From: Gammaproteobacteria bacterium 42_54_T18 | Lineage (GTDB): Bacteria > Pseudomonadota > Gammaproteobacteria > Pseudomonadales > Ketobacteraceae | Length of the DNA: 37,453 nt | Assembly: GCA_002163245.1 (NCBI GenBank) | Contig: MAAL01000162.1 | Location: 1-37,453, forward strand | Direction of reading: 5' to 3' | Part shown: piece after piece, positions 11,905 to 37,453 of the stretch | Layout of the letters: each line of letters opens with the position of its first letter | Position numbering within the stretch: the first letter of the stretch is position 1 | The notes under the pieces: generated by a model | What the model was told of the DNA's origin: nothing | Seen by the model: the letters and a program-made list of their open reading frames with translations, nothing else | Databases searched by the model: none | Made by a program: the position numbers and the translations under genes

Positions 11905-11914
11905 ATTTACACGG

Positions 11915-11951: not shown

Positions 11952-11961
11952 TTTAGGGGCT

Positions 11962-11994
11962 ATTTGAAGGTCATTTGAAGGTCATTCGACGGTT
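11962..11994 (+). repeat. Three 11-bp tandem copies at a gene end
   Basis: ATTTGAAGGTC is repeated exactly at 11962-11972 and 11973-11983, followed by a degenerate copy (ATTCGACGGTT, 11984-11994) that runs into the stop codon of the leftward periplasmic protein gene. It looks like slippage duplication at the 3' edge of that gene. Confidence 0.5.
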
Positions 11995-12628: not shown

Positions 12629-12722
12629 AAGGCTTCCTGGCGCAGAACGTGGATAAAGAATGTGGATAAACAGTTTGATCTGTTATCGAGAGCTCTGCGC
12701 CAGTGTATCCCTTGAATTGTTG

Positions 12723-13178
12723 TTACGCTAGTGAGGAGGGTGATTGGGGTGGGTTGCTAGCGATTTTTTGTGATGGTGTTCTTGTACTCCACCAGATGCC
12801 AATGAGTAATATCACTTGTACCACAAGTCGAACACTGAGAAAGGCTTCTGGTACTTCAGGAAATAACTCAGGGTGCATCCACATGTGGATGTTTGCGGGA
12901 GTTACGGCAAGGGTCAGTAGGAACAGGCCGTTGCCTGCCCATTGTCGTGTGGCAAATAGTAGGATGCCTAGCGCCCCTAGTATTTCAAATACACCGCTGA
13001 TATAGACAATCTCTAGGTGATAAGGCAGGTAGGGAGGCATGATGTTGACAAAAAATGCGCTATTCACAAAGTGGCCGACACCGCCACCAAAAAACCAAAT
13101 AAAGACGATACCAAGGGTGATTTTTTTGCCGGTGCTTAGTTCGTTGCTAGAGGTCGTATTTGTCGTATTGTCAGACAT
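12723..13178 (-). CDS. DoxX-like four-helix membrane protein
   Basis: About 151 residues with four hydrophobic helices (roughly 18-38, 55-78, 83-103 and 115-135). The repeated pattern of a His/Asn-containing first helix, a glycine-rich second helix (YISGVFEILGALGILL) and a charged tail resembles small DoxX/SURF4-type inner-membrane proteins. The biochemical role of that family is poorly defined. The start lies 3 bp after the stop of the upstream lipoprotein hydrolase gene, so the two are surely in one transcript. AAGGAAG lies about ten bases before the ATG. Confidence 0.7.
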   Translation of the reverse strand: MSDNTTNTTSSNELSTGKKITLGIVFIWFFGGGVGHFVNSAFFVNIMPPYLPYHLEIVYISGVFEILGALGILLFATRQWAGNGLFLLTLAVTPANIHMWMHPELFPEVPEAFLSVRLVVQVILLIGIWWSTRTPSQKIASNPPQSPSSLA

Positions 13179-13181
13179 GCT

Positions 13182-15083: not shown

Positions 15084-15414
15084 GGTGACCGTTCCTTTGG
15101 GCAGGCTCTTATTCTAATTTGCGGGCAGTATCCTATGGGGAGTAACTAGCGATAAGAGTCTGCTAAGGCCGAGATTGAGGCTTAGTTAAGATTGAAAGTT
15201 TTATAAATTTGTTAGCTAGCGAGAGGTATTATTTCTATGTCTCTATAAAATGCATGAAAAACAATGAGTTAAGTTGTTTATGTGCGTGGAGTCTGTTTGG
15301 GACAATAGGGTTATAAAGGGCCTGGATTGCTGATAAGCTAACACTAGTGTGGGTGCTTTCGTATAGAAACAATGTGAGAGAGTAGGGTAAAGAACATTAA
15401 CGAGGAGTGTGCTT
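15084..15414. other. Divergent intergenic region with a short palindrome
   Basis: This 331-bp stretch separates the leftward hydrolase operon from the rightward AraC gene and must carry both promoters. I see no small gene. The only clear structure is the palindrome ACACTAGTGT at 15341-15350, about 65 bp before the AraC start, a possible operator. No convincing -35/-10 pair could be picked by eye. Confidence 0.4.
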
Positions 15415-16497
15415 GTGGGGCAGATGATCAATACCGAAGAAAAATTGGTACCGTTAAATAATTATCCCGCCGGTTTAATTCGGATGATGCAAGAGCAAGG
15501 CGTTGGTTTAGCAGGTCTGCTTCAAGATACGGATATTACGGAAATTCAATTACAGGACTTTTCTGCGCATATCTCTTATGCCCAATATACTCAGCTTATT
15601 GTGAATTCATTGCGAGCATTTTCGAAACCGGGTTTAGGTTTGCATTTAGGAAAGTACCTTCATATTGCTAGTAATGGCATGATGGGTATTGCGGCCATGA
15701 CGAGTAACACATTAGCAGATGCGTGTGAGATTCAGTTGGCGTATTACAAAGCCCTCTCGCCATTAATGGTGGTGGATATGCATATCAGTGAAGGTAAGGT
15801 GCATTTTCAAACCCATGAGGCGTGGGGAGCGGGGCGTTTATTACCATTGGCGGTTGAATGCTTGTTTACGGGAATTTATCACAACGCAAAAATGATGTTG
15901 GGGGTGGATCATATTGAATGTGAAATACGTTTGGCGTATACGGACCCTGGTTATGTAGAGACTTATACTGATATTTTGGAAAATCCGGTGCAGTTTGGGT
16001 GCGTGGTGAATCAGTTATCCATTGATGAAAGCTTGTTGGCTCTCCCTTTAACGTTTAGAGACCCTAATACTTGTCAGATGGCTAAACAACACTGTCAGCG
16101 AGAGTACGCTGGAGCGGCAGCGCGCCAAAGCTTGGTAACAAGAGTGCGCCGTGTTGTGCATTACGAACTAGACCGTTGGCAGGTTCTTGAGGGGCACGCG
16201 CCACCATTAACATTGGTGTTTGTTGCAGAAGAATTGTTTATGAGTCCACGGACGCTAAAGCGTAAGTTGAGTTCATTAGGTACGAGTTACCAAAAGGTGA
16301 AGGAAACTATTTTATTGGAACGTGCCGATGCGATGTTACAGGATACAGGCATTACGGTGGCGGATATCGCTCAGCGTTTACAGTTTTCGGACACTGCAAA
16401 TTTTCGTAGGGCATTTAAACGTTGGACGGGAAAAACACCTCTAGCGCACCGGCAAGAATTTCTCAGCTTCACCCCAAGGAACGGGTTTGCTGAATAA
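15415..16497 (+). CDS. AraC-family regulator with arabinose-binding-like N-terminal domain
   Basis: About 360 residues, cytosolic. The first ~210 residues match the ligand-sensing domain of the OruR/ArgR-like AraC subclass (start YPAGLIRMMQEQGV, then LGLHLGKYLHIASNGMMGIAAMTS). The C-terminal ~100 residues carry two helix-turn-helix units (VAEELFMSPRTLKRKLSS; VADIAQRLQFSDTANFRRAF) and the ending GKTPLAHRQEF. I choose GTG 15415 because GAGGAG (15402-15407) is seven bases upstream; ATG 15424 and GTG 15409 are worse spaced. It is divergent from the lipoprotein hydrolase operon, a likely target. Its last 57 bp overlap the 3' end of the convergent GGDEF-EAL gene, an unusually long coding overlap. 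Confidence 0.88.
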   Translation: MGQMINTEEKLVPLNNYPAGLIRMMQEQGVGLAGLLQDTDITEIQLQDFSAHISYAQYTQLIVNSLRAFSKPGLGLHLGKYLHIASNGMMGIAAMTSNTLADACEIQLAYYKALSPLMVVDMHISEGKVHFQTHEAWGAGRLLPLAVECLFTGIYHNAKMMLGVDHIECEIRLAYTDPGYVETYTDILENPVQFGCVVNQLSIDESLLALPLTFRDPNTCQMAKQHCQREYAGAAARQSLVTRVRRVVHYELDRWQVLEGHAPPLTLVFVAEELFMSPRTLKRKLSSLGTSYQKVKETILLERADAMLQDTGITVADIAQRLQFSDTANFRRAFKRWTGKTPLAHRQEFLSFTPRNGFAE

Positions 16498-18483
16498 AAA
16501 ACCTTGGGCGTAATCACACCCGGAGGATGCTAAGAAGTCGAGTTGTTGTGTCTCAACGCCTTCAGCAATAACTTTTTGCCCTAAGGAATGAGCCATCTGA
16601 ATAATGGCTCTGATTATCGCTTCGTCATTTGTATCTTCGCCAATGTCTCTGATAAAACTCTGATCAATTTTAAGGTAATCAATAGGGAATTTCTTTAAGT
16701 AACTTAAGGACGAATAGCCGGTTCCAAAGTCATCAATGGCAATGGTGATACCCGCTTTGCGTAAATCGTTTAATTGACGAATGACATCCATTGGGTCATC
16801 CATTAATGCGGATTCTGTTAATTCCAATTTTATATGGTTTACCGCTATTTTATTTTCCGTTAGTAGCGTTAAAATTTGTTCGGAGAAGTTTTTTTGTTTG
16901 ATCTGTTTGGCTGCAACGTTAATGGCAATGGTGAGATTGTTTCTTGCATCGCTGTAATTACCAGTGAACCATTGGTTTGCTTGTTGTCCGGCTTTTAGTA
17001 GCATAAATTGGCCAAGATCTTCAATTAACCCAGCTTCTTCTGCAATTGGGATAAATACTCCGGGTGAAATCATTCCTTTGTCTTTATGATTCCATCGAGC
17101 CAGAGCTTCAAAACCTGAAATTCTATTTTCTGCAATGTGAATAATAGGTTGGTAGTAGGGGAGTATATCGCAACCCTTAATAGCCAGACGAAGTTCGTTG
17201 GTAACTTCAATGTGACTTTGAATGCGCATGTGCATGTCATTATCAAAAAATTTGAAGTTATTACGACCACTTTTTTTAGCATGATACATGGCGGTATCGG
17301 CTGCTTTTGTGAGAGTAATTGCATCGGTTCCATGTTCTGGAAAGCTGGCAATGCCAATGCTGGTTCCAATGTATGCATCTTTTCCAAACAAATAAAATGG
17401 TTGAGAGAAAACGTCAATAATTTTTTGTGCGACATTGGCGGCGTCATTAATGCTGGTCATTTGTTGTAACACGACAGCAAACTCATCTCCACCGAGTCGA
17501 GCAATAAGGTCCGCATTTCGTAATACGTCTTTTAGCCTTTCTGATGCTTGTACAAGTAATAAATCCCCTGCGTCATGGCCTAATGTATCATTGATATCTT
17601 TAAAGTGATCAAGATCAAGAAACATGACGCACAAATTGTCGCCAATTCTTTGGCAGTTTGCGGTCAGTTTTTCTAAAAACTCCCAATATAGAGTGCGATT
17701 CGATAAACCGGTAAGTTGATCGAATTTTGCAAGATTTACCAGCTGGCTTTCAATTTCTTTACGTTCAGATATGTCTTGAAAAATTATGACACCACCTTTA
17801 CGTTCGTCATCTTCGATAATTGAAGATTGCGTATATTGTACGGGGAATTGCGCTTGTTTGTTTCGCCAAAAAAGGGAGTTATCATCCTGATTACATTGGT
17901 TTTCTTTAAAGGTTTGCACAAACTCGGATGCCATCCAGTCATTGTTGTTGCTTAGGGGGTCGATAAAGTCCTTTATGGATTGTCCGACGATATCGTTTCG
18001 TTTGGCTGTGAGTAATGTACAGGCAGCGGTGTTAACAAAGGTAATAACATTCTCAACATCTAGACCGATAATGCCTTCTGCAGTGAAATTAAGCAGTTGT
18101 TCGTGTTGGCGTTGTAAAAATCGTACTTGTGCCAAGGCTTCTTCGGTGCTTTTTCTTTCATTAAATAAGGCAAGTAAGATGTTAAGTTTGCTGAGGAGGA
18201 TGTCTTCATCAAAAGGTTTGCTAAGATAATCAATCGCGCCAACCTCATAGCCTTGTCGGATGTAGCCTTCTTGGTTTCCTGCTGCAGTAATAAAAATAAT
18301 GGGGGTGAGTCTGTGAAATGGCAGATTACGGATTTTTTCTACGCATTCGAAGCCATTCATTCGTGGCATATTAATATCCATTAAAATGGCGGCGTATTCA
18401 TTCTCCTTTGCCAATTCGATTGCGTCCTCTCCACTTAACGCGCGGTCAAAAGCTGAGGGTAGTGTTTCTAGTGCCATTTCCAA
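16441..18483 (-). CDS. Response-regulator PAS-GGDEF-EAL protein, 5' end frameshifted
   Basis: Cytosolic c-di-GMP turnover protein. In the main frame (680 residues): a receiver lacking its first strand and acidic pair but with phospho-acceptor D36 (LMDINMPRMNGFE) and K89; PAS (about 128-240); GGDEF (about 250-420) with intact GGDEF at 331-335 and a product-inhibition RxxD at 322-325; EAL (about 435-680) with [22 protein letters not shown] and VIAEGVE intact. Both catalytic halves look competent. The missing receiver start lies just upstream in another frame (see 18488-18532). As written, the frame starts only at TTG 18483 with no ribosome site, so either the gene is broken, the sequence has an indel, or the ribosome shifts frame. 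No histidine kinase is adjacent. Confidence 0.85.
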   Translation of the reverse strand: MEMALETLPSAFDRALSGEDAIELAKENEYAAILMDINMPRMNGFECVEKIRNLPFHRLTPIIFITAAGNQEGYIRQGYEVGAIDYLSKPFDEDILLSKLNILLALFNERKSTEEALAQVRFLQRQHEQLLNFTAEGIIGLDVENVITFVNTAACTLLTAKRNDIVGQSIKDFIDPLSNNNDWMASEFVQTFKENQCNQDDNSLFWRNKQAQFPVQYTQSSIIEDDERKGGVIIFQDISERKEIESQLVNLAKFDQLTGLSNRTLYWEFLEKLTANCQRIGDNLCVMFLDLDHFKDINDTLGHDAGDLLLVQASERLKDVLRNADLIARLGGDEFAVVLQQMTSINDAANVAQKIIDVFSQPFYLFGKDAYIGTSIGIASFPEHGTDAITLTKAADTAMYHAKKSGRNNFKFFDNDMHMRIQSHIEVTNELRLAIKGCDILPYYQPIIHIAENRISGFEALARWNHKDKGMISPGVFIPIAEEAGLIEDLGQFMLLKAGQQANQWFTGNYSDARNNLTIAINVAAKQIKQKNFSEQILTLLTENKIAVNHIKLELTESALMDDPMDVIRQLNDLRKAGITIAIDDFGTGYSSLSYLKKFPIDYLKIDQSFIRDIGEDTNDEAIIRAIIQMAHSLGQKVIAEGVETQQLDFLASSGCDYAQGFLFSKPVPWGEAEKFLPVR

Positions 18484-23880: not shown

Positions 23881-24660
23881 CTACAGGCCGCGCTGCCATT
23901 CTTCTCGTAAATGAATAGAACCAGGTCGTTGAATCGCATCGTCCACTTGTTGTAGTAATGAGGCTTTGTCTTTACCGAGCACACCTTTCAGTACAAGATA
24001 ATTGGATGCATGGTCACTGCGGAATATGGTGCTTTTTAAATTAAGATTTGCCAATAATAAGCGAATCTCTTTGAATAGTTCTTGCTGTTCCAATATCTCA
24101 AATGATTGGTTAAATCCTTCTTGAACTCGTTCTAGACCCGTAGGAAAAGATACCACTAGAGTCGATAGATATTCTGGCTGGGCTTCATTCATTAATTTTG
24201 CAGAGTTAATTGCGTGTTGCTCAGAGTAATGTTTTCCGCCCATACCATTTAGAATCATTACTGAGCTTTTCATGCCTGCTGTTTTGATTTTTTTTAGTGC
24301 GTCGAGGGATGTTTGGTAGGTTTCGCCTTTCTGTATTTTCTCTAGGACGGTGTCATCGCCACTTTCACAACCCACATACATCAATGACAGACCCAGGTCT
24401 TTCAGCGCTTGAAGGTCTTCAACGGATTTGTTTTTAAGGTTCCTTGGTAAACAATATGAAGATACTCGCTGAATATTAGGGAAGTATCGACGAATTAGCA
24501 TGAGTATTTCTGTGAGCCGACGAATGGATAATGTCATCGCATCACCGTCGGCTAGAAAAATACGTCTAATTTGATGTTGATAGGGTTGAGCTTCCTGAAG
24601 GAATTTTTCAATGTCTTCAATAGCAGTGGGTTTGAATTTTTTTTGTGACGCGGTGTACAT
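23881..24660 (-). CDS. Radical SAM protein lacking its N-terminal iron-sulfur motif (truncated)
   Basis: About 259 residues. The body matches radical SAM proteins of the type with IRRIFLADGDAMTL, SLMYVGCESGDDTVL (SAM-binding GxE region) and MILNGMGGKHYSEQHA, and the family-typical end REEWQRGL. In relatives the opening CxxxCxxC, which binds the 4Fe-4S cluster, directly precedes the MYxxKKF stretch. Here that stretch (MYTASQKKFK) is the very start, and the upstream codons (YVFLGTSND) hold no cysteines and meet a stop. About 45 residues are missing, so the protein cannot be a normal radical SAM enzyme and is probably a pseudogene. Confidence 0.75.
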   Translation of the reverse strand: MYTASQKKFKPTAIEDIEKFLQEAQPYQHQIRRIFLADGDAMTLSIRRLTEILMLIRRYFPNIQRVSSYCLPRNLKNKSVEDLQALKDLGLSLMYVGCESGDDTVLEKIQKGETYQTSLDALKKIKTAGMKSSVMILNGMGGKHYSEQHAINSAKLMNEAQPEYLSTLVVSFPTGLERVQEGFNQSFEILEQQELFKEIRLLLANLNLKSTIFRSDHASNYLVLKGVLGKDKASLLQQVDDAIQRPGSIHLREEWQRGL

Positions 24661-25033: not shown

Positions 25034-26305
25034 TTAGACGGAGAGTTTATCCTTACCCATGACTGCCTGTAAGGGTTCAGGGATACGGATCGAACCATCA
25101 CCTTCCTGATAAGTTTCCAAGACCGACAGCATAGCCCTGCCAGTGGCGATGGCGGTTCCGTTCAGCGTATGGACCAGGCCAGCCGATTTACCAGTACTGG
25201 AGGAGCGCATGCGTACTTTCATACGGCGGGCCTGATAATCGGTGCAGTTACTGACGCTGGTGACTTCACCATAGCTATCCCGGCCCGGCATCCATGCTTC
25301 CATGTCAAACTTGCGATAAGCCGATGCGCCCAGATCGCCCGTTGCATTCTCAACCACGCGGTAGTGAATGCCAAGGCCGTCGAAAATCTCTTTCTCAATA
25401 TCCAGTATCTTTTCGTGCAGATCTTCCGCTTGGTCCGGATGAGAAAAAGCAAACATTTCTACCTTGGAAAACTGGTGGACACGATACAGGCCTCGGGTGC
25501 CGCGGCCACTACCACCAGCTTCCTTTCGAAAGCAGTGGCTAAGACCGCCCATCAGAATAGGCAGTTCGCGTTCATCAATCAAGGTATCGGCATGAATACC
25601 AGCCAGCGTAATCTCGGATGTGGCAATCAGCCCAAGGTCTGTACCATCAATAGAGTAAATCTGGGACTCTTCTCCACGCGGGTTATAGCCAGTGCTAGCA
25701 ATAACCTCCAATCGGGCCATATCTGGCGTTGTGTGGACAGTAAAGCCGTGCAGCTCAAGAATATCGATAGCATATAGCTGCAACGCCAGGTCCAACCGAA
25801 CGGCATCACCCTTCAAATAGTAAAAGCCCTGGCCCGCTACTCGACTGCCAGAAGCGAAATCAAACAGGTCGTGTAGTTCGCCCAGTTGCACATGGTCACG
25901 GACCTCGAAATCAAATTCGGGTCTCGCTGTTATGCCGTACTCGCGCACGACATTTTCTTCGTCTGTTGCACCATCCGGGACTCTGGGGTCAATCAGATTT
26001 GGAATGGCACCGTGCAGGTCTGATAGTTCTGTTTCTATACCGCACAACTTTCCCCGCAGGTTATCCCGCAGTTCTTTAAGGTCACGCCCTGTTTGTAGTT
26101 CTTCAGCGCTGGGACGTCCCTTAATGGCTTTCAGGGATGCTGCATGTTCATTCGCCCGTCGATTGGTTTCTTGAATGTCCCGATCTATGGCATGTGCCTG
26201 TTGGTACAGTTCCAGAAATTTATCAAGGTCGACATTCATTTTTCGACGTGAAATATTAAGACGAATTTCGTCCTGGTTATCAATTATGTAACGAAGATTA
26301 AGCAT
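25034..26305 (-). CDS. serS: Seryl-tRNA synthetase, divergent type, inside the biosynthetic block
   Basis: Class II synthetase of 423 residues that charges tRNA-Ser with serine. An N-terminal long coiled-coil arm (about 25-105) for the tRNA precedes the catalytic core: FDFEVRDHVQLGE, the serine-binding TSE (239-241), motif 2 CFRKEAG (R260, E262) then RGLYRVHQFSKVEMF, SNCTDYQARRM, and motif 3 NGTAIATGRAMLSVLE. All key residues are present, so it should be active. It does not look like the usual gammaproteobacterial SerRS (which has SNxWDFQARRM and different arm and linker sequence); it resembles forms I associate with planctomycetes or actinobacteria. It is the last gene of the leftward block, 50 bp after the SDR, with its own terminator. 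Likely a second copy for self-resistance or for supplying seryl-tRNA. Confidence 0.92.
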   Translation of the reverse strand: MLNLRYIIDNQDEIRLNISRRKMNVDLDKFLELYQQAHAIDRDIQETNRRANEHAASLKAIKGRPSAEELQTGRDLKELRDNLRGKLCGIETELSDLHGAIPNLIDPRVPDGATDEENVVREYGITARPEFDFEVRDHVQLGELHDLFDFASGSRVAGQGFYYLKGDAVRLDLALQLYAIDILELHGFTVHTTPDMARLEVIASTGYNPRGEESQIYSIDGTDLGLIATSEITLAGIHADTLIDERELPILMGGLSHCFRKEAGGSGRGTRGLYRVHQFSKVEMFAFSHPDQAEDLHEKILDIEKEIFDGLGIHYRVVENATGDLGASAYRKFDMEAWMPGRDSYGEVTSVSNCTDYQARRMKVRMRSSSTGKSAGLVHTLNGTAIATGRAMLSVLETYQEGDGSIRIPEPLQAVMGKDKLSV

Positions 26306-26355: not shown

Positions 26356-27119
26356 TTATGGATAAGATTGCCGTGTTGTTCGCAACATGATGTCATGTAG
26401 ATGAACGTGCGGCGGTTGGTCAACTACATATTCCACGGTCCGTGCAACATCTTCAGCCTCAATCAAGGGGCCAATGTTCTGCACAGCTCGTTCAAAAGCT
26501 TCAAGGTCATAACCAGATGCTTCCTGGAAATTTGTGCGAACGAAACCGGGTTGTATCAGTGTCACACGTACGCCAAGCGGACCCAGCTCTCGTCTAAGCG
26601 CTTCTGTTGCCCCATGAACGGCAAACTTCGTTGCGCCATAAACAGGATTGGTAGGAGAAACATAGGTCCCAATGGTAGACCCAATAACCACAATGTCACG
26701 GGGGGGGGGGCGTCCGTATCCTGCGCATCGTTTGATGTCATTGCCTCTGCTAACATCCGAAACTGACGAAAAGCCCCAAGAATATTTAGGTTAATCATTT
26801 CTTCCCATTTGCTTGGGTCAGAACTGGTGAAGCTGCCCGACAAGCCCCGACCAGCATTGACAACGCCGATGCAAGGCAAAACATCGAATTTATTACGGCA
26901 CACGTCCAGAAGTGTTGTAACCGTATTTTCATCGGTGATGTCCCCTGTTACTGGAATGAACGTGCCCGGTGCTTCTTTGCTCCAGGCTTCAAGATCGGTC
27001 AAACGATCTCTGCTGCGTGCATTACCAATGACTGCATAGCCCTTCGATAAAAATTGCTCGGCAATTGCTCTGCCGATACCTGAACTAGCGCCGGTAACGA
27101 TTGATACTCTGGTTTTCAC
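26356..27119 (-). pseudogene. Short-chain dehydrogenase/reductase, frame broken in a run of 11 C
   Basis: Together the two frames make a complete classical SDR of about 254 residues: NAD(P) motif TGASSGIG, VVNAGRG, catalytic Ser in VVIGSTIG, and YGATK for Tyr/Lys. The start is GTG 27119 with AGGAAG about seven bases upstream. The first frame runs from 27119 to a stop at 26562; the proper C-terminal part (111 codons) is in another frame and ends at 26356. The shift is at a run of 11 G on the plus strand (26700-26710). Nine or twelve bases would restore the frame. The enzyme would reduce or oxidise an alcohol/carbonyl, possibly the aldehyde released by the NRPS. It may be phase-variable, a pseudogene or a sequencing error. 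Confidence 0.88.
26700..26710 (-). repeat. Homopolymer of 11 C in the SDR coding strand
   Basis: Eleven consecutive G on the plus strand sit exactly where the SDR reading frame breaks, between NDAQDTDAPP and the GSTIG catalytic strand. It is the longest mononucleotide run noticed in the window. Such tracts slip during replication and are also a common site of sequencing error. Confidence 0.95.
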
Positions 27120-27758: not shown

Positions 27759-29156
27759 TCAGCGTATCGACTGCACAGAATCGAGTAACGCACTAAACTC
27801 TTGCCTAATGTAAGAGGCCAAGTTATCTAAATCGGGCAGTGTATCCCTACATGCCGTCAAACTAAAATTGAGTTTTCCTGCGTAACTGACTACGGTAATA
27901 TTCAGACACTGCATTTGGAAAAGCAATGATGGAGAATAAAAACTCTCTAATTTGGCTCCATTTAGATAAAGAGGTTCTTCAGAGCCGACAACATTAGAAA
28001 CTATGAAATTATAGGGAATTGGAATGCCTTTGGTCAATCCAAAGATCTGACTCAATGCGAACGGAAAAGATGTTATTAGCGTATAATTACGAATAGCAGT
28101 CTTTGAAAGAGACACGAGCTTACGCTTAGATGCAATCATTGAACTATGAATACTAGACAATCGTTCCACTGGATCCCTAATGTCACTACCAACTTCACAA
28201 AGTACGTCACTTATGGCATTTCCAGTATCTACCTGACTACTCTTTTTTCTTAATGAGACTGGGACGGAAACAATGAGCGATTTATCCAACGGTAGTCCTT
28301 TTTCGACTAGCAGCCTTCTAAGGGCACCACCACTAACAGCTAGGATCACATCATTAATAGAGGATTTAGTATTTGTTGCCACATACTTGAATTCTGAGAG
28401 TGAAAATGTAACAGTTGCAATTCTCCTGTTTTTGCTAACAGGAGAATTAATAAATGATGAACTTGCTGTGTACCAACCTGGTATTTTTGCGCCCGATACC
28501 TTTCGTCGACGCCTCTTCACCTTTTTATTGTTATGTGAAAGCTCTTGAATAGACTTAATATTCTGAGAAAAACTGTGGAAGTATTTCCTGGCTATTACAC
28601 TAACCGTATCACGCTTTTCGCTCTCGAATACGTTATTACCCCTAACCCCCATTATCCTATCAGAGGCCAAGGAGTCTGGTTTTTTACTCAGAATAATTGT
28701 ATCCATAGTATTTAGAGCTGAAACACCATCCCAATACGCGTGATGAAACTTCCAATATGCACCAAACCTACCTCCATCCAGACCGTCAATTAGAGTGCAC
28801 TCCCATAGTGGTCGTGATCGGTCTAGTATTGAACTATGTAGTCTAGAGGTTAACTCGATCAACTGTTCATCTTTATCGGTTCCGGACAATTTAACTTGTC
28901 GAATATGGTGGTCAATATCGATATTATCATCGACTTCCCAAGAGGGTAGACCTATACCATACCGTGGGGGGCGTAACCGTTGATTAAAGGGCGCTATCGT
29001 TCTAGCTATTTCAGCAACGTAATGGACTAGCTCTTCAATATAACTCTGAGCGTCTCCATCAGGATACCGATATATCTGTAATGTGCCAAAGTGCATGGGA
29101 TGAGAACACCTTTCCACTCTAAGAAACAAACTGTCGGCAACGCTAAGCTTCTTCAT
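27759..29156 (-). CDS. WS/DGAT-family acyltransferase
   Basis: About 465 residues. Bacterial wax ester synthase/diacylglycerol acyltransferase: it transfers an acyl group from acyl-CoA to an alcohol or diglyceride, at the membrane face. The catalytic HHxxxDG is intact (HHAYWDG, 138-144). Family context is seen in the start LSVADSLFLRVE, RPLWECTLIDGL, INDVILAVSGGALRRLL, VPVSLR and the late block NFIVSNVVGSEEPLYLNG. The length is normal. ATG 29156 has GGAGGG about eight bases upstream. It is more AT-rich than the NRPS genes around it. It lies 81 bp after the A-T-C NRPS stop. WS/DGAT proteins share the condensation-domain fold, so it may acylate the NRPS product rather than make storage wax; that is inference. 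Confidence 0.88.
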   Translation of the reverse strand: MKKLSVADSLFLRVERCSHPMHFGTLQIYRYPDGDAQSYIEELVHYVAEIARTIAPFNQRLRPPRYGIGLPSWEVDDNIDIDHHIRQVKLSGTDKDEQLIELTSRLHSSILDRSRPLWECTLIDGLDGGRFGAYWKFHHAYWDGVSALNTMDTIILSKKPDSLASDRIMGVRGNNVFESEKRDTVSVIARKYFHSFSQNIKSIQELSHNNKKVKRRRRKVSGAKIPGWYTASSSFINSPVSKNRRIATVTFSLSEFKYVATNTKSSINDVILAVSGGALRRLLVEKGLPLDKSLIVSVPVSLRKKSSQVDTGNAISDVLCEVGSDIRDPVERLSSIHSSMIASKRKLVSLSKTAIRNYTLITSFPFALSQIFGLTKGIPIPYNFIVSNVVGSEEPLYLNGAKLESFYSPSLLFQMQCLNITVVSYAGKLNFSLTACRDTLPDLDNLASYIRQEFSALLDSVQSIR

Positions 29157-29237: not shown

Positions 29238-32200
29238 CTAACTGTCCACGGAAAAACTGAAAAGCTCGTGCAGGAAAGTCTGCGCAAGCCTGTTGATTGT
29301 TTCTTCACGATACAGTGCTGTTCTGTACTCAAACGAAAAGACAAAACCGGTATCCGTGACTTCTGTATTGAACGATAAGGGGAATTTGGAAAAACCGCTG
29401 TGAAAACTGAGTGGTTCAGCATGTACGCCTCGCAGCTGGAGAAACCGAGTGGCTAGGTCATCGAAGGAAACAACGGTCTGAAAACCTCTAAAATTCATGG
29501 CCTGCCCCTTAGCCCTCAAATGATTAAGTACTACCTCAAATGGAATACGGCCATGGGCAAGCGCGCCCCACAGGGTGTCGCCAACCTTGGTTAGTAAGGC
29601 ACTATTCGTTGTATCGTCGCCGATATCAATAAAGCACGGGAGGGCGGTAACGTAGCAACCCAGTGCATCACCATGCTCGTCCGGCCGCAGCCCTGTTACA
29701 AATCCAATCGCCTGATCTGAGTACCCCAGTGTTTGATAAAGCGCGCTGGAATAGGACGCAAAAAACAAATGAAAGGGTGTGACGCCTGACAGAGGTATCC
29801 GTTTCAGTTGGGCGTTGACTGTGTCTTTGTCTATTTCAACAACAACCTCTCGACCCGAAACGGACATGGAATGAGCACCCTCTGGCATGTCGGACTTGAG
29901 CGCGACAGCTTTATCAAGGTCAGGCAAAGTTTTACCCCAATACTCGAGAGCTGCAGCAACAGCTCTCTGACTTCTAGTAGGCGTATCCGCAGTCCCGTAG
30001 GGTATACAATCTGAACCGAATAACTGGTTTTCCCATCGGCAGTAGGCTGGGAAGCGAAGATCCGGTTCCTTTGCAGGCCATGGCTTGCTGGTAGCACTTA
30101 TAGTGTAAGCTTCAGACAGCCGCTGAACGAAAACCCGCATCGACTGCCCGTCACAGATCAGGTGATGCACCTGAATAATCAGAACCGCTTCTTTATCCGC
30201 TATTTTTAAAACCCTCATGTAAAGCGGCGGTGATTGTTTCAAATCTAAGCGCATAGACGCCACTTGGGTTATCTGCTTCTTGATATAGCGTTCTTTGTTA
30301 TTATCAGAGATGCGTCGCGCGCGGATAACATCAAAACAAATGCTAGGGTTATCATGAATGCGTTGCTGCGGGCCATCCGCTGTCATAAATATCCGCGCAG
30401 ACAATATTGGATCCGTCTTCACTACATAGGTTACAGCTGCTTCTAGCGCCTCTAAATTCAGTTTGCCAGATAACACAGCTGAAATTGTAATGCCATAGGG
30501 GTTGCCTTCTACTGCGAACTGTTCATGAAGGTAGATAGAGGATTGGGCAACAGATAAGGGAGTTTCATGAAAAGGTGTTGATGTTTTTTTCTCTGACAGC
30601 TCTGCTTGAATTTCATCAATGTCAATAAAAGACGTTGATTGCGTCACTGCAGCTTCTGTGTCGTTCAAAAGGCGACATATATTTTCAATGGTCGGTTCCA
30701 AAACAAAGCGCTGCAGAGGAATATCACAACGAAACAACGTCCGCACTTCGCTAAGCATGGCTATCAACATTAAGGAGTCGCCGCCAGCTTGGAAAAATGG
30801 GTCAGCACTGTCAACATCTGGCAAGTCCAGCAAACGGCACCAAATACGCCGAAGGGTATCTTTTGTTATGGAGAGGTCGTGGCGATCCACTATCTCTATT
30901 GCGGTGTTTGGGACCGCAGGCAAGGCCTTGCGATTTATTTTTCCAGAGGGCGTACGTGGCATGTCATCCAGAAAAAAAATCTTATGCGGTATCATATATT
31001 TTGGCAAGTTATCGGCACAAAATTCACGGATGGCTTCCTGTGTGATATCGGCATCCTGATGCGTCTGGACATAAGTGATGAGGATCGTGTGACCCTTGGT
31101 ATCACGATAACTGATAGCAGCAACCGATATAACATCTACATGGGACGCGATCAAGGATTCCAGGCCGTCTAACTCCACTCGGTAGCCCCGCACTTTAACC
31201 TGTCGGTCAGCGCGACCAGATACGAAGATATCGCCATTTTCCAGGCGGTATGCCAAATCGCCGGTGGATAAAAGGCTCCCGCCCGCAGCGAAGAACGTGT
31301 TTGTCAAAAAACGTTCAGCAGACAGATCTGGCCTGTTTAAATAGCCATCAACAACGCAGTCGCCAGCTATGAAGAGTTCGCCTTCCACTCCATCCGCTAC
31401 AGGCATCAGATTTTCATCTAAAATATGGGCGTCGACACCGGGGAAGGGAGAGCCAATCGGAACAAACTCTGTTTTCATCGAATAGCTGTTTAACAAGGAT
31501 GTATCAAAGCTTGTGATATCTGCACTCGTTTCAGTGAGCCCATATTGATTGCGTAAAATGGCATCGGGAAAGCTTTGGTAAAAAAGCCGTACCAAATCGG
31601 ATGAAAGTGGTTCACCGCTTACGATCCATTGCTTAAGGTGAGGCAGTTCGAGTCCCAAATCGTCCGCAGTGGTAAGCATGGAACGCAATAGAGATGGAAC
31701 TAGGCATATTCGCGTTACCTTAAACTTGCGTAGCGACTTAACCAGCCTGCGGGGATCTTGATTGATATCATCGTCCAACAACACAACCGGAATGCCCTTT
31801 GATAATGGTCCCCATATCTCCCAATGAGAGTCAACTACAGTAAGCGCGGTGTTTTGAATGGCAACTTCATGCTCTAAGAACGGCTGCAAAGCCCAAAGGC
31901 TCTCGCAGCGTTGTATAATACCGTGATGAAGACCTTTAACAGCCTTCGGACGGCCGGTAGAGCCGGATGTATATAATATCCAGGCGGGTGCATCACCAGG
32001 CCAATCGGTGCTTGTCGGCAGGTCGCGCGGTGCATGAAACGCCAAACGATCCACACGCAAGGTATCGATAGAACTGTCGAATGCCACCTCGTCGCCTGTT
32101 AGTATTAGATTGGGCTTCGCGTCATCGAGAATGAATTCAATAAACGATATTGGATAATTCATACTTATTGGTAGTTGCGCAGCACCAGACTTCAAGCAGG

Positions 32201-32495
32201 CAAGCAGGGCAACGACCGCATCAATAGAGCGCGGCAGAAAGATCGCCACGGTTGAACCGGGGCCAATGGCGGTTTGTTCCAAGTTTGCCGCCAGCTGGTT
32301 TGCACGTGCATCAAGCTCATCATATGTTAGGCTTTGATCTTCCGTAATCAGGGCAGTGGTATGCGGGGATCGCAGAGCCTGATTTTCAAAATATTTGTGA
32401 ATTGAAGAGAATTCTCGCGTTATGTTGTCTGTAGACAAGGTACCAGCGGCTTGATGAGCTGGAGGTACAGCGGCCTTCGTTATATGGGTGAACAT
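29238..32495 (-). CDS. Nonribosomal peptide synthetase A-T-C, predicted beta-alanine activating
   Basis: About 1085 residues, cytosolic. Adenylation domain (about 30-530): LYTSGSTGRPKAVKG, NQYGLTETSADI, STGDLAYRLENG, GRADRQVKVRGYRVEL, TPSGKINRKAL. Thiolation domain: QAGGDSLMLIAM with Ser574. C-terminal condensation domain (about 640-1080): LSVAQSSIYL, HHLICDG (777-783) intact, GCYVTALPC, IPFEVVLNHL. The pocket residues aligned by eye to GrsA are V221 D222 W225 C264 I291 S293 Q317 A325 D326 K519. The canonical Asp235 is replaced and Asp sits one position later, as in remembered beta-alanine codes (VDWVISLADK-like). The terminal C domain should join this residue to an acceptor on another protein, most simply the A-T-E-R synthetase encoded just upstream in the same block. 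Confidence 0.92.
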   Translation of the reverse strand: MFTHITKAAVPPAHQAAGTLSTDNITREFSSIHKYFENQALRSPHTTALITEDQSLTYDELDARANQLAANLEQTAIGPGSTVAIFLPRSIDAVVALLACLKSGAAQLPISMNYPISFIEFILDDAKPNLILTGDEVAFDSSIDTLRVDRLAFHAPRDLPTSTDWPGDAPAWILYTSGSTGRPKAVKGLHHGIIQRCESLWALQPFLEHEVAIQNTALTVVDSHWEIWGPLSKGIPVVLLDDDINQDPRRLVKSLRKFKVTRICLVPSLLRSMLTTADDLGLELPHLKQWIVSGEPLSSDLVRLFYQSFPDAILRNQYGLTETSADITSFDTSLLNSYSMKTEFVPIGSPFPGVDAHILDENLMPVADGVEGELFIAGDCVVDGYLNRPDLSAERFLTNTFFAAGGSLLSTGDLAYRLENGDIFVSGRADRQVKVRGYRVELDGLESLIASHVDVISVAAISYRDTKGHTILITYVQTHQDADITQEAIREFCADNLPKYMIPHKIFFLDDMPRTPSGKINRKALPAVPNTAIEIVDRHDLSITKDTLRRIWCRLLDLPDVDSADPFFQAGGDSLMLIAMLSEVRTLFRCDIPLQRFVLEPTIENICRLLNDTEAAVTQSTSFIDIDEIQAELSEKKTSTPFHETPLSVAQSSIYLHEQFAVEGNPYGITISAVLSGKLNLEALEAAVTYVVKTDPILSARIFMTADGPQQRIHDNPSICFDVIRARRISDNNKERYIKKQITQVASMRLDLKQSPPLYMRVLKIADKEAVLIIQVHHLICDGQSMRVFVQRLSEAYTISATSKPWPAKEPDLRFPAYCRWENQLFGSDCIPYGTADTPTRSQRAVAAALEYWGKTLPDLDKAVALKSDMPEGAHSMSVSGREVVVEIDKDTVNAQLKRIPLSGVTPFHLFFASYSSALYQTLGYSDQAIGFVTGLRPDEHGDALGCYVTALPCFIDIGDDTTNSALLTKVGDTLWGALAHGRIPFEVVLNHLRAKGQAMNFRGFQTVVSFDDLATRFLQLRGVHAEPLSFHSGFSKFPLSFNTEVTDTGFVFSFEYRTALYREETINRLAQTFLHELFSFSVDS

Positions 32496-32792
32496 TAGAA
32501 TGGTTCCAAGAGTTATGATTATTTCTGCTGCATGACTAACTCGGTTGCAGCCCTTTTCCTACCGGGGAGCCTGCACAGAATGTTAAAATCTGACTGCCCA
32601 ACGTTTTTGCGTTGGGCTCTGTTCATGATCTGTAAGATACTTCAGGAGCTGTTCTGACCGTTCGTTCGGACCATCGCATAAATAACCAGAGGTCCTGGCT
32701 TGAGTGTGCTTGATGACCTTGCGGATACGGCGCTCATTCACTGTGAAATTGCGCTCACTGTCGAGCAAGATGTCGTTTCAACTTCACGATAT
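32496..32792. other. Gap between the two NRPS genes, with a hairpin
   Basis: 297 bp. GCCCAACG (32596-32603) and CGTTGGGC (32610-32617) form a perfect 8-bp stem with a 6-nt loop, followed leftward by a weak T stretch, a possible terminator or attenuator after the A-T-E-R gene. A leftward open frame of ~61 codons from TTG 32768 lacks a ribosome site and any family resemblance, so I do not call it. A promoter for the A-T-C gene may lie in this gap. Confidence 0.45.
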
Positions 32793-33641
32793 TTAGAAGG
32801 CATCTAAAACCTCTTTTTTTGGTTCAGGCATATAGTCAGCGTCGATAGCGAAGCTCATCGCTCTCTCGAACCACTGGTAATTCGGCTTGGGAAAACTAAT
32901 TCCCAACCTGTCCATGGTATCTAGAGTACGTTTGTTATCGAAAATGACATTTCGATTTGGGCGTTCGCTCCATTGGAGTGCTACTGCTGCCAGTACTTCA
33001 TCCTGCTTGGCAACATGGTTGTTAAGAGCGTTCCAATATTCGTGAGCGGAAACTGGCACGACTGGGTAGCCAAAGTCAGTTAGCCAGCTGGCCATTTGAC
33101 GTGGGTCGAGTATGTATGGGTTTTCGACGTGAAAAACTTGAGCGGGCACAAAAGGGTCACGGGCAATGGCCAAAATGGCTGCGGCCACTACGTCGATATG
33201 GGAAAAGGAAACACCGTGGCTTTCTTTATCTATGATTAAACCAGCAAGTGCGTAGCTTTTAATCATCTGGTATATCCGGTTGTCACCCATGTTGGTTTGA
33301 AAGGCACCAGTTGCGCTGTTGCTTGCGATATGTCCCATCCGATAAATATATGTTGCGCTGCGCGTAGCCGCTGTATCGCGAACGATACGTTCAGAATTGA
33401 ATTTTGATTCCTCGTATGGAGACAAAAAACGTTGGCCGATATCAAAGTCGGTTTCTGCGAACGCCCTGGGGTCACTAACTTCTCCAGCCACTGCCAGCGT
33501 TGATATGTAGTGCAGCGGTATCCCCCCTTGTTGCGATATCCACTCCACAACATGACGGGTGCCGCACTCGTTCGTTTGTATCAGCTCAGTCGCTTGTCCC
33601 AGTAGCCTTGTATCCGCTGCAGCGTGAAAGACTGTCGACAC
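32793..33641 (-). CDS. Reductase domain, C-terminal part of the A-T-E-R synthetase (frame-broken)
   Basis: This frame begins inside the R domain, not at a true start: GTG 33641 is a Val codon, and the same frame is open upstream to about 33730, reading KCVLVVSGNVSSPGLGL then DGRVSTVFHAAAD. It carries the catalytic residues: Ser/Thr in HYISTLAV and YEESK (Tyr/Lys), then YIYRMGHI and the substrate-binding C-terminal subdomain. Together with the Rossmann motif GATGYLG at the end of the preceding frame it forms one thioester reductase domain of about 370 residues. It has no ribosome site of its own. The R domain releases the peptidyl thioester with NAD(P)H as an aldehyde or alcohol. Confidence 0.85.
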   Translation of the reverse strand: MSTVFHAAADTRLLGQATELIQTNECGTRHVVEWISQQGGIPLHYISTLAVAGEVSDPRAFAETDFDIGQRFLSPYEESKFNSERIVRDTAATRSATYIYRMGHIASNSATGAFQTNMGDNRIYQMIKSYALAGLIIDKESHGVSFSHIDVVAAAILAIARDPFVPAQVFHVENPYILDPRQMASWLTDFGYPVVPVSAHEYWNALNNHVAKQDEVLAAVALQWSERPNRNVIFDNKRTLDTMDRLGISFPKPNYQWFERAMSFAIDADYMPEPKKEVLDAF

Positions 33642-33700
33642 GCGCCCATCTAACGATGGGGGTAAACCAAGTCCTGGAGAACTGACATTGCCGCTAACAA

Positions 33701-36700
33701 CTAGGACGCATTTAGCTGCCTTATAGAGGCGGCTTCCTGACCGAACGATCGGGTATAAGATTCAAAAAAGCGGTTGCGAGCCTCTATATCCGATCCGCCC
33801 CGAACGAGACAAATAGGTTGGTAGGCCTTTTGGCGTAGCATTTCATGAACCAGTTGTAGGCCCAAATAACCGGTAGCACCGGTTACCAGAGCGGCGGGCA
33901 GGTCAATTGTATTAAGTGTTATGGGGGATTCAACGCGCGACAACAAGATCATGCCGGATGTCGAGCTATACTCTCGCGTGAAGTCGCCAATTGCCCTATC
34001 CTGTAGTGTTCCCTTGCTCGGCGCTGAAATTTCGCCCAGCCGTTTACGGAGTGTCGACACGATTTGATCGGCTTGAAAGGTCGAAATCCGCGTTGGGTCA
34101 TGCACAAAGTCAATTGTTAGTCGGTCATTGACAATTCTTGCTGTTAAGCGACCTGCATAGACCTTATCAATGGCTGTGCTGCGAGTGGGGCCGTGTGCCT
34201 CCTCTGCCGCTTCCCAATCCTGATTTGTTAACGATGTGGACAAAAAAGTGCCTAGGAAATTGAAACACAGCTCAGCAATATTCTGCTCACTGGCCAGCGG
34301 GTCTAAAAGGTCCTCAGTAAGCATCTTTTGTAAGGCATCTGCTCTTGCCTTAAATGTGTCGTGATCGCCGGCGGGAAAGGCCGCCTGCCTAAGGGATGTG
34401 AACCAGCCAACGGTACCATAGTAGAGTTCTATATCCTGGAGGTTTTCCCTGCCATGCCGCTCGACGTCCATCACCACCTCTGGCGTTGAGCTCACAATAC
34501 CGATGCCATCCAAAAAACCCTGAAGTAGAAAGGCCTCCAGAGCGCCTGAATTCTCTGAAGCATCAAGTAAAACTCTTGTTTCGCGCGCATCAAGTGACAA
34601 TACCAGTGATTCAAGCTCAGTGTTCGTTGTGAAGCGCTTTGCAAATAATTGTTGTTTCTCCAGCAATGGCGCCGTTTGATTTTGTCGTTCAGTCTCATCA
34701 GACAGTTTTGCCGTCCAATCCCAAAAGCTTGCAGGCGTATCTGGGGACCAGTCTTTCCCGGCAGCACAGGCAGCATAAGCGGCACCGAGTTCATCGAACA
34801 ATATGCGCCAGGAAACACCATCAATTGCAAGATGATGAACAATGATCAGAATACGGTCTTGTTCACCTTTTGCGGATTTAAATAGGTGCGCTTTGAATAG
34901 ATTCCCAAGTGCCGTGTTCATGGATTGGTTCAACTCTCGACTTACGGAGGTTATGGTTTGCTGCATGGCAGCCAAGTCATCTGGCAGCGCGGAAATGCTG
35001 AAACTAGTTAGCATGGCATCGCTTTGCACAGGGCCTAAACGGTCCTTTTCAAACACATGACATAGCAAAGGGTGGCGCTTGCCCAAAAGGCAAATAGCTC
35101 TATTGAGCACAACAGGGTCAACTCCCCGTTTTGATCTGAGTAGAATGGCCTGATTGTAGTGATTTGGATCATCAAGCTCCAGCTTGAAGAACCAGTCTTG
35201 CATCGGTGAAAGAATGTGTTCGTCGGTTTCGGAGGGCGTATTTTGTGTATCGCCCGTTAGCTCTGGCTTTGACTGGAGATAATGGGCTAACGCCGCTGGA
35301 GTGGGGTGTTCATGTATCTCAGGTAGGTTTGTTCGCCAGTTTCTGGCACGCAACCGCGCTATTGATAACATGAGCGTGATGGAGTCGGCCCCCGCTGCAA
35401 AAACATCTTCATCCGGATCTAATGTTGGTAGACCCAGTAGTTGTGCCCATATGGCCGAAATCTGAGCAACTAGATCGCCAGTTGCTTGATCAGCTGACCC
35501 GATGGCCTGTGGTGTCTTGTCATCGGAATTGGCGTGTTTTTGTACCAACCTCTCAATCGACCGATAATCGAGCTTGCCACTTTCCGCCAGGGGCATAGTG
35601 GCCAAGGGGTATATCCGAGAGGGTATCATCCAGTCTGGCAGGCGCCGTTGCAGGGATTGACGAAGCTCTATGACAGCGTCAGCATCTTTCTGCGCATCCG
35701 GTTCGAATTCCACCGCGCAATCAATGCGAACAAAACCACCATGCTCGTAAACCAGTATGGCCGCTCTGACGACGCCCCGTGTTTCTTCAATGGCCGCCTC
35801 TACATCCGGCGGATTGACAATGTAGCCACGCACTTTGACTTGACGATCTTTTCGGCCCAGAAACTGAAGTTGTCCGTCAGATGTTTTTGTGCACAAATCA
35901 CCGGTACGGAAGGCAATGGGGCTATTGTCGTCAACTTCAAAGCGATCAGCTGTCAGATCTGGCCTGCCGAAATAGCCTAGGCTCACGCCCGGACCGTGGA
36001 TAACTAATTCGCCGACCTCGCTGCCATCCTGCCGATGATAGACGTTCTCAAGCGATAAGATGTTTTGACCAAGAGCGGTGCCGATTGGCACCGTATCCTG
36101 CCAGTTGGCCAGCTCCTCTGGCAACGTCACAACATGGCAGCACACTCCAATGGTCGCCTCGCTTGGTCCATAGTGATTAATCAATCGTCGGGCGTGGCCT
36201 TGTATCAGGATTTCTCTTGCCAACCCAAGGCTCAGCCTCTCGCCGCCCAGGATAACCGTGTCAATCATTACGCGGTTATCAGGACACCCTTGCATCAATG
36301 CCTGGAAATGCGAGGGTGTGGTTTTGATGTAGTTAATGTTATTTTGCTCAGTCCAAGTCCAAAAAGAGATCGGGTCGCGGACGGTATGATCAGATGCTAC
36401 ACAAATGCTGCCCCCGACTAAAACCATCGGGAAAATAGCAGTATGTCCCAAATCTGCTGCCAATGTCGTAACGTGCGCAAATCGTGGGGCGTCGCCCTGC
36501 TGTATGCCCAATCGTTCAATGATAGCTTTTGCATAATGCACCACATTAGTATGGCTGACAGCGACAGCTTTGGGCCGCCCCGTTGATCCAGACGTAAGTG
36601 TCAGATAGGCTGTTTCCGGCATTTCGAAAAGGACTGCGTTCTCAATGCTGCTATAAAATTCCTGCAGCTCCACCACGGGAGGCCCCAAAGCAGCTAGAGG

Positions 36701-37075
36701 TGACGCGTGGTCTGCGATAAGAAGACTTAACTGAAGTTCTTGAACATCTTGGCGCAGTTGCGCCATGGGCTTGATCGGTAAGACGACTGCGGTTAGTCCT
36801 GCAGCCATAATACTTAGAAAGATTGCTACGCTCTTTGCTGACCGATCAATAGCAACCCCCACCTTGTCACCACTTTGCAAACCATGACGACGCGCAATAA
36901 CTACAGTGCTCGCTGTTATCCGAGTCAGAGCTTCATAAGTAAGCGTAGTATCGCTATCATGAACTGCCGTGCGTGTAGCCCAGTGGCTCGCAGCCAGAAA
37001 GATCATATCTCGGACATTGCGAGGCTCAGAGATCGGTCCGTCCAGTCCAGGCACAGATGTTTTAAAATTCAACAT
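33701..37075 (-). CDS. Nonribosomal peptide synthetase A-T-E-R, predicted aspartate activating (frame broken in R)
   Basis: 1124 codons in this frame. Adenylation (about 20-510): YLTLTSGSTGRPKAVAVSH, NHYGPSEATIG, FRTGDLCTKTSDG, GRKDRQVKVRGY, AESGKLDYRSI. Thiolation: AAGADSITLML with Ser565. Then an epimerisation domain (about 618-1010): HHLAIDGVSWRIL (H747-H748), VERHGREN, VGWFTSL and FNFLG, which are E-domain motifs rather than C-domain ones. The reductase starts near 1058 with ALVTGATGYLGLQLVHEM, and the frame stops shortly after (LNAS, TAG at 33701). Pocket residues D208 L209 T212 K251 I275 G277 H301 I309 G310 K501 match the remembered aspartate code (DLTKVGHIGK). There is no condensation domain, so the partner must be the A-T-C protein. 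ATG 37075 has only a weak GAGA upstream. Confidence 0.92.
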   Translation of the reverse strand: MLNFKTSVPGLDGPISEPRNVRDMIFLAASHWATRTAVHDSDTTLTYEALTRITASTVVIARRHGLQSGDKVGVAIDRSAKSVAIFLSIMAAGLTAVVLPIKPMAQLRQDVQELQLSLLIADHASPLAALGPPVVELQEFYSSIENAVLFEMPETAYLTLTSGSTGRPKAVAVSHTNVVHYAKAIIERLGIQQGDAPRFAHVTTLAADLGHTAIFPMVLVGGSICVASDHTVRDPISFWTWTEQNNINYIKTTPSHFQALMQGCPDNRVMIDTVILGGERLSLGLAREILIQGHARRLINHYGPSEATIGVCCHVVTLPEELANWQDTVPIGTALGQNILSLENVYHRQDGSEVGELVIHGPGVSLGYFGRPDLTADRFEVDDNSPIAFRTGDLCTKTSDGQLQFLGRKDRQVKVRGYIVNPPDVEAAIEETRGVVRAAILVYEHGGFVRIDCAVEFEPDAQKDADAVIELRQSLQRRLPDWMIPSRIYPLATMPLAESGKLDYRSIERLVQKHANSDDKTPQAIGSADQATGDLVAQISAIWAQLLGLPTLDPDEDVFAAGADSITLMLSIARLRARNWRTNLPEIHEHPTPAALAHYLQSKPELTGDTQNTPSETDEHILSPMQDWFFKLELDDPNHYNQAILLRSKRGVDPVVLNRAICLLGKRHPLLCHVFEKDRLGPVQSDAMLTSFSISALPDDLAAMQQTITSVSRELNQSMNTALGNLFKAHLFKSAKGEQDRILIIVHHLAIDGVSWRILFDELGAAYAACAAGKDWSPDTPASFWDWTAKLSDETERQNQTAPLLEKQQLFAKRFTTNTELESLVLSLDARETRVLLDASENSGALEAFLLQGFLDGIGIVSSTPEVVMDVERHGRENLQDIELYYGTVGWFTSLRQAAFPAGDHDTFKARADALQKMLTEDLLDPLASEQNIAELCFNFLGTFLSTSLTNQDWEAAEEAHGPTRSTAIDKVYAGRLTARIVNDRLTIDFVHDPTRISTFQADQIVSTLRKRLGEISAPSKGTLQDRAIGDFTREYSSTSGMILLSRVESPITLNTIDLPAALVTGATGYLGLQLVHEMLRQKAYQPICLVRGGSDIEARNRFFESYTRSFGQEAASIRQLNAS

Positions 37076-37109: not shown

Positions 37110-37391
37110 TCAAGAGGTACGGGATAACTTGAGGTCAGGGTGGTGGGTCAGAATATGGTCCAGCGCCAGCCTGATTGTTTTGCGATCAAAAACAGGCGTT
37201 TCTAAACCCGACAACTCCAATTCTTCCCGTGTCTTTTTCCAGTCGTAAAGTGTGCGGTGTTGTGCGGCATTCATTTGGTGATCTTCAAATGCGTTCTGAC
37301 TCATTGAAAAGCCAAATTCCACGAAAGGTATCGCAGACATGGCGAGCGCATCCGAATACCCCGTCAAATATGGGCTGTAGAAAGCAACCAC
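37110..37391 (-). CDS. Unknown ORF upstream of the NRPS genes
   Basis: 93 codons from GTG 37391, ending 34 bp before the A-T-E-R start, so in operon position. It contains VAFYSPYLTGYSDALAMS, PFVEFGFSMSQNAFEDHQMN and a C-terminal ALDHILTHHPDLKL. I do not recognise the family; the last stretch is faintly like the first helix of condensation-fold acyltransferases. GTG has no ribosome site, an in-frame TAA lies about 25 nt upstream, and an ATG at the window edge (37453) opens a 13-codon frame in another phase. It may be a truncated or frame-broken gene. Confidence 0.45.
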   Translation of the reverse strand: MVAFYSPYLTGYSDALAMSAIPFVEFGFSMSQNAFEDHQMNAAQHRTLYDWKKTREELELSGLETPVFDRKTIRLALDHILTHHPDLKLSRTS

Positions 37392-37453
37392 ACGAATAAC
37401 TGTAACACTCGCTAATTACCATGAGCTCTTTTAGCTATAAGAGCGAGCCTCAT

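Follow-up and report, generated by a model that had tools for sequence, protein, structure and literature searches.

Why should a short nonribosomal peptide synthetase (NRPS) line epimerise an amino acid and then release it by reduction, and why should the genes for such a line lie beside a second gene for seryl-tRNA synthetase (SerRS)? Both questions arise from a 37,453-nucleotide stretch of DNA from Gammaproteobacteria bacterium 42_54_T18, hereafter the window, which is an entire contig (MAAL01000162.1, C111 in our numbering) of a genome of 6.66 Mb in 199 contigs. A sequence-only reading had proposed that the window holds a complete two-module NRPS making a β-alanyl-D-aspartyl aldehyde. Domains in the open reading frames (ORFs) of the window were called with Pfam and NCBIfam/TIGRFAM profiles, and proteins were compared with 72,556 plasmid records and with mutually overlapping samples of genomes at the level of order, class, family, phylum and genus. 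The picture obtained is of an NRPS cluster with an aminoacyl-tRNA synthetase as its guard, broken in the present genome, a rhizobial plasmid carrying an intact relative, an interpretation to which we give an even chance.

The NRPS enzymes and the split reductase

The two large proteins carry the domains predicted for them, adenylation-thiolation-condensation (A-T-C) in one and adenylation-thiolation-epimerisation-reductase (A-T-E-R) in the other (Table 1), save that the reductase is not in one frame but divided between two. Alignment to GrsA, a yardstick verified against 1amu, reproduced exactly the pocket codes of the sequence-only reading, and both are near-unchanged in a Rhizobium relative described below. 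The code of the A-T-C protein is VDWCISQADK (VDWCVSQADK in Rhizobium), to be set beside VDWVISLADK, which we take to be the β-alanine reference and which our literature search did not find in print. That of the A-T-E-R protein, DLTKIGHIGK, agrees at 9/10 positions with DLTKVGHIGK, the first eight positions of which (DLTKVGHI) are given as the SrfAB-M2-Asp code in the accessible text of PMC3207962; the Rhizobium enzyme matches at 10/10.

The E domain appears genuine, as had been supposed. It bears the motifs HHLAIDGVSWRIL (HHxxxDGVSWRIL type), GWFT and ExHGR, and in a tree of 42 C and E rows it fell, not among the C domains, but within a 12-row group with support of 100/98, the tool warning of long branches. 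GWFT and ExHGR were present in all 12 rows of this group and in no other row, and it is from its motifs, without outside reference sequences, that the group is named. The window E domain was compared with the window C domain, two rhizobial domains and 38 domains from elsewhere in the genome; 3/41 loci, which yielded no domain, were left out, and at some others the domain taken was a neighbouring one, giving repeats (42 rows, 38 different). Condensation-domain matches numbered 47 genome-wide, 46 of them above the family cut-off. The prediction of a single C domain besides a single E domain was borne out in the window, and it holds even across the three NRPS proteins of the rhizobial set.

Both reductase motifs are present, TGATGYLG (TGxTGxxG, NADPH) in the first ORF and YEESK (YxxxK) in the second, and the change of frame lies upstream of the stop at 33701. 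Inspection by eye, with no search aimed at programmed frameshifting, showed no slippery site. In the Rhizobium relative the A-T-E-R protein (1407 aa) is intact, with its reductase in one frame; reductive release, as predicted, is thus sustained by the relative, whereas in the window the domain responsible for it is frame-broken. A gap of 297 bp between the second reductase part and the A-T-C gene (32496-32792) holds a short stretch on the - strand that is open for about 64 codons.

Nor does the line appear to end with these two proteins. Directly upstream of the A-T-E-R gene lies a fragment whose sole match in the plasmid records at E≤0.01 was a rhizobial A-T-R protein (E 2e-7), itself intact. 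In-frame stops at 37416-37418 and 37431-37433, just upstream of the fragment where the contig ends, indicate that the upstream A-T-R gene is broken or a remnant. Further NRPS modules directly upstream had been named beforehand as evidence that would tell against a complete two-module line, and the fragment comes close to being just that. Judged by its predicted genes, the line is incomplete within the window, with a third reductase-ended NRPS upstream and with serS and a short-chain dehydrogenase/reductase (SDR) in the same cluster.

Relatives of the cluster on plasmids

An orthologous cluster with an intact reductase, the search for which the sequence-only reading had proposed as a check, was found on plasmid p3 of Rhizobium leguminosarum GLR17 (NZ_CP071629.1, at about 240-270 kb). 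Common to p3 and the window are A-T-R, A(Asp)-T-E-R, A(β-Ala)-T-C, a TniO-type SDR and serS; in p3, serS lies directly after A-T-E-R, with A-T-C near by. Identity to the p3 proteins was 48% (full-length) for A-T-C and 50.7% for A-T-E-R, against at most 32.4% for the other 19 listed of 3079 matching records and at most 29.5% for the other 14 listed of 2226, respectively. The rhizobial cluster differs in that its reductase and SDR are intact, its SerRS is 33% identical to that of the window, no WS/DGAT acyltransferase is among the annotated genes listed (an incomplete table), and the stretch additionally encodes a cupin protein, a second SDR, a thiamine pyrophosphate (TPP) enzyme, a TauD-type dioxygenase, a major facilitator superfamily (MFS) transporter, a glycosyltransferase, a phosphopantetheinyl transferase and an ABC transporter. 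The pocket code of its A-T-R enzyme is DATKVGEVGK, which we read as Asn-like. Close to the rhizobial A-T-C gene lies a GNAT gene, possibly for an acyltransferase.

On plasmid pBPHY02 of Paraburkholderia phymatum STM815 (8450-17058) an A(Asp)-T-E-R gene, with the code DLTKFGHIGK, is followed directly by a TniO-family SDR gene, a pair of genes that the window has too. This locus differs in the identity of its A-T-E-R protein (28-30%), in its neighbours, which include an ATP-grasp, D-Ala-D-Ala-ligase-like protein and a MATE transporter, and in showing neither A-T-C nor serS among the annotated genes listed. It is possibly a sister pathway in which an ATP-grasp amide ligase replaces A-T-C, or one with Ddl as guard. 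An NRPS frame on plasmid pn1 of Nostoc sp. UHCC 0926 also ends in A-T-E-R, and its pocket looks Asp-like by eye, placing an E-R ending after Asp in a longer line too.

The window SDR changes frame at an 11-base homopolymer (26700-26710; C on the coding strand), for which read error, decay and phase variation are all possible causes. Because this break splits it, each half scores below the NF038213 cut-off of 300, intact relatives scoring 319.4 and, in P. phymatum, 367.1 bits. With the P. phymatum protein as query, 2/72,556 plasmid records matched at E≤1e-25, P. phymatum itself and rhizobial p3. All three TniO SDRs seen (window, Rhizobium and Paraburkholderia, the SDR having been searched in plasmid records) lie in a cluster with an Asp-A-T-E-R gene; the converse fails, the more distant Nostoc A-T-E-R having no such SDR on its plasmid record. 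Because a TniO-family SDR is found in all three clusters, it is doubtful that the product stops at a dipeptide aldehyde, as had been proposed.

Orthologues of the A-T-C protein were limited to the window genome itself in the order sample (1/293 at E≤1e-150) and class sample (1/369 at E≤1e-130), and the family sample gave 3/15 at E≤1e-110, namely itself and two longer NRPS frames (395 and 372 bits; 30-31% identity). The rhizobial A-T-E-R protein recovered 1/398 in the phylum sample, again the window genome. Within that genome, A-T-C matched four loci at just 24-28% identity, 30 matches to the rhizobial A-T-R all ended before its R domain, and the rhizobial TPP enzyme had two, at 25-30%. Two sets built around the genome taken as rhizobial (84% DNA match), its family for A-T-C (0/267 at E≤1e-130) and its genus for A-T-E-R (0/148), contained no known positive and are uninformative. 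A literature search, with subscription papers mostly outside its reach, found no listed title describing the present cluster, text on cluster-borne SerRS that dealt with albomycin and valanimycin, nothing for TniO with short-chain dehydrogenase or for SerRS with Rhizobium, antibiotic and gene cluster, and, for TniO alone, no gene-related title among those listed.

The second seryl-tRNA synthetase and the origin of the cluster

The housekeeping-type SerRS of this genome is encoded on another contig (C93; TIGR00414 556.5 bits) and is 37% identical to the window SerRS, which is therefore a second, divergent copy. At E≤1e-30, 278/293 genomes of the order sample had a SerRS match, two in the window genome and one in each of the other 277, and the window SerRS had a non-self identity of at most 39% among the matches listed. 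An independent genome with serS beside the biosynthetic genes was found in one case, that of Rhizobium p3. Its place next to A-T-E-R in Rhizobium, the raised G+C that it shares with its neighbours, and the uniqueness of a second copy in the order sample mark serS, as far as gene comparison can, as part of the cluster. Duplicate aminoacyl-tRNA synthetases, about 30% identical, protect the producers of albomycin, mupirocin and indolmycin, according to the accessible text of PMC9437257, and the second serS suggests here that the target of the product is seryl-tRNA synthetase. The window SerRS also matched 97 plasmid records at E≤1e-5, including small plasmids annotated with serS.

Sixty invariant SerRS columns were defined on 30 order sequences and five others. 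At 16/60 of these the rhizobial SerRS was altered, beyond all five leave-one-out controls run on the others (11/71 for Paenibacillus; 0/60, 2/62, 4/64 and 0/60 for the rest). Among the changes are N to D within the LNG of motif 3 and T to S at the threonine of TAE, positions that we take to be serine-contacting.

By a modest margin, the cluster also differs in composition. Its G+C was 0.506 in serS, 0.491-0.502 in the SDR parts, 0.482 in A-T-C, 0.488 in the separate R part, 0.507 in A-T-E-R and 0.482 in the remnant, versus 0.407 in the WS/DGAT gene, 0.387-0.471 in 15 other window genes, 0.442 in the C93 serS and 0.419-0.440 in six other genomic NRPS stretches; third-position G+C was 0.473-0.521 in the cluster (second SDR part excepted) versus 0.350-0.445 elsewhere in the window. 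Because the raised G+C is common to them, the NRPS genes, the SDR and serS probably arrived jointly by horizontal transfer. At least two cluster genes, those for R and the SDR, are frame-broken, through either decay or read error, and A-T-C and serS are intact.

The WS/DGAT gene is probably a later neighbour outside the cluster, a host-like insert; it had no match among the 15 rhizobial proteins compared, and this and its host-like composition were the grounds for rejecting it as the release enzyme. A radical SAM ORF (23881-24660, - strand) starts without the usual Cys cluster, and the stretch upstream of it to 25033 resembles, by eye, a decayed 5′ end of this ORF lying in other frames. A TonB-dependent receptor fragment at the left edge of the contig (4-1221, + strand) prompted the idea of a siderophore role, which was rejected, the receptor being distant from the cluster and of host-like G+C.

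Table 1. Positions of the cluster genes and of the WS/DGAT gene in the window, with the evidence for each.
Feature	Position	Strand	Evidence
C-terminal remnant, thioester-reductase-ended NRPS (rhizobial A-T-R counterpart)	37110..37415	-	82 aa, 29% to rhizobial A-T-R C-terminus
NRPS A(Asp)-T-E and N-terminal part of R (NADPH motif)	33701..37075	-	Pfam; code; E tree; 51% (50.7%) to rhizobial A-T-E-R over 1105 aa
Remainder of R domain (YxxxK motif), different frame	32793..33641	-	Pfam NAD_binding_4; 55% to residues 1123-1398 of rhizobial A-T-E-R
NRPS A(β-Ala)-T-C, intact, 1085 aa	29238..32495	-	Pfam; code VDWCISQADK; 48% full-length to rhizobial A-T-C
TniO-family SDR, N-terminal part	26562..27119	-	NF038213 133.9 bits; 36% to rhizobial SDR1
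TniO-family SDR, C-terminal part, other frame	26356..26691	-	NF038213 159.2 bits; 59% to rhizobial SDR1
Second seryl-tRNA synthetase (serS), intact; putative self-resistance copy	25034..26305	-	TIGR00414 410.6 bits, cut-off 301.65 (410.3 bits in the genome-wide comparison with C93)
WS/DGAT acyltransferase	27759..29156	-	PF03007/PF06974; TIGR02946; G+C 0.407

A proposed product, its target and the alternatives

Taken in the order A-T-R remnant, A(Asp)-T-E-R, A(β-Ala)-T-C, TniO-type SDR and serS, the genes suggest a route. In an intact relative the A-T-E-R enzyme would load L-Asp and then epimerise it, the C domain of A-T-C would couple β-Ala to Asp, the R domain would free the α-carboxyl of D-Asp on T, whether bare or β-alanylated, as an aldehyde, and the TniO SDR would probably turn that aldehyde into an alcohol. 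By our derivation, D-Asp reduced at C1 would be (R)-3-amino-4-hydroxybutyrate, which has the configuration of L-serine with one CH2 more, and L-Asp would give the mirror form. The finished product, as a seryl mimic, would inhibit seryl-tRNA synthetase, and the extra, divergent SerRS would let the producer survive. This homologated L-serine configuration would account both for an E domain ahead of R and for a SerRS that accompanies the NRPS genes. We regard it as an evenly balanced question whether the window holds such a cluster, horizontally acquired and now decaying, for a small reduced-D-Asp product against whose action on SerRS the second SerRS stands guard. No support was found for the inhibition of an Asp-specific protease, a role that had been offered for the aldehyde; the duplicate serS directs attention rather to seryl-tRNA synthetase.

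The albomycin cluster has, to our knowledge, no Asp/β-Ala reductive NRPS pair, and AbmK, the SerRS that serves as its supplier, is also the resistant copy. It differs too in its thionucleoside-siderophore product, and is like the present cluster in having a SerRS in the cluster (AbmK), a resistant second SerRS in the producer (SerRS2) and SerRS as target, albomycin being named as the SerRS-directed natural antibiotic of this kind in the accessible parts of PMC9437257 and PMC9032320. Peptide aldehydes of the livipeptin and leupeptin type share the R-domain release of a short peptide; livipeptin differs in its Arg-type A domain and L/F transferase, and the accessible part of PMC10548850 mentions neither an E domain nor a cluster serS for this type.

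Several observations weigh against a guarded cluster of common origin. One full relative was found, that on p3, and the rhizobial genes that are absent from the window (those for the TPP enzyme, dioxygenase, cupin protein and glycosyltransferase) may alter the product greatly. The low identity between the window and rhizobial SerRS sequences lends no support to a shared descent, nor does a 19-row tree, built from 19/37 collected rows, in which the two lie apart and the window copy pairs with a Paenibacillus SerRS (support 87/85, flagged as long branches meeting); the two serS genes may, on this sequence evidence, have been recruited separately. At 8/60 altered columns the window SerRS is within the control range and no odder than the Paenibacillus copy, and the positions changed in the rhizobial SerRS are unchanged in it. 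The transfer argument is tempered by the second SDR part, host-like in third-position G+C (0.384), and by one host-like gene whose G+C of 0.471 is close to the 0.482 of A-T-C. Lastly, a cluster SerRS may instead supply seryl groups, as do AbmK and VlmL (PMC9032320, in its accessible part).

This last point, with those two precedents, is the basis for regarding the cluster SerRS as biosynthetic, supplying seryl-adenylate or seryl-tRNA for attachment to the peptide aldehyde or alcohol. Valanimycin likewise has a class II SerRS in its cluster, and differs in that VlmL serves seryl transfer in biosynthesis, as the accessible text of the same paper has it; the window copy, which retains 52/60 invariant positions, would be fit for such a task. 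However, ten rhizobial proteins and 20 window ORFs gave no Pfam match of the L/F-transferase or FemX type (the rhizobial TauD, MFS and glycosyltransferase proteins were scanned by NCBIfam only, and several rhizobial cluster genes lay outside the Pfam scan), and the unusual residues of the rhizobial copy make it ill-suited to be a supply enzyme, so that we find a biosynthetic SerRS rather doubtful. It is less probable still, and in our view unlikely, that the pathway is dead, with serS alone retained, either for immunity to producers like the rhizobial strain or as a decaying passenger. The frame-broken R and SDR, the A-T-R remnant with its in-frame stops and the apparent loss, by eye, of the radical SAM 5′ end, beside an intact serS, all fit a dead remnant, which would be compatible with the guarded cluster as the best explanation of the original role; but the A-T-C gene is still open over 1085 aa, implying recent loss or sequencing error, and one of the breaks falls in an 11-base homopolymer, typical for read error or phase variation.

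The two-module line to β-alanyl-D-aspartal, as a protease inhibitor or cyclic imine and with serS as a chance neighbour, agrees with the codes, with the E and R domains and with the single C domain besides E even across three rhizobial NRPS proteins. It leaves unaccounted for the recurrence of serS beside the rhizobial A-T-E-R gene, its raised G+C and its status as a second copy, which the other 277 matching genomes do not show, and it must contend with a third reductase-ended NRPS in the cluster and an R domain broken in the window; we consider it distinctly improbable. An aldehyde end product, its closure to a cyclic imine (a 1,4-diazepinone) and a biosynthetic SerRS are, as separate elements, possible.

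Under the proposal of a guarded cluster, the serine-like configuration of C1-reduced D-Asp gives a reason for an otherwise odd E-R pair. We advance only tentatively the more specific idea that the product would be a so far undescribed, non-nucleoside SerRS inhibitor, a C1-reduced D-Asp serine mimic with a β-alanine cap, possibly for uptake, and with a co-transferred SerRS as guard, present in a rhizobium and in a distant proteobacterium. As a compact NRPS cluster that carries a SerRS of its own, and with an intact form on a sequenced rhizobial plasmid, the system would make both target and product directly testable.

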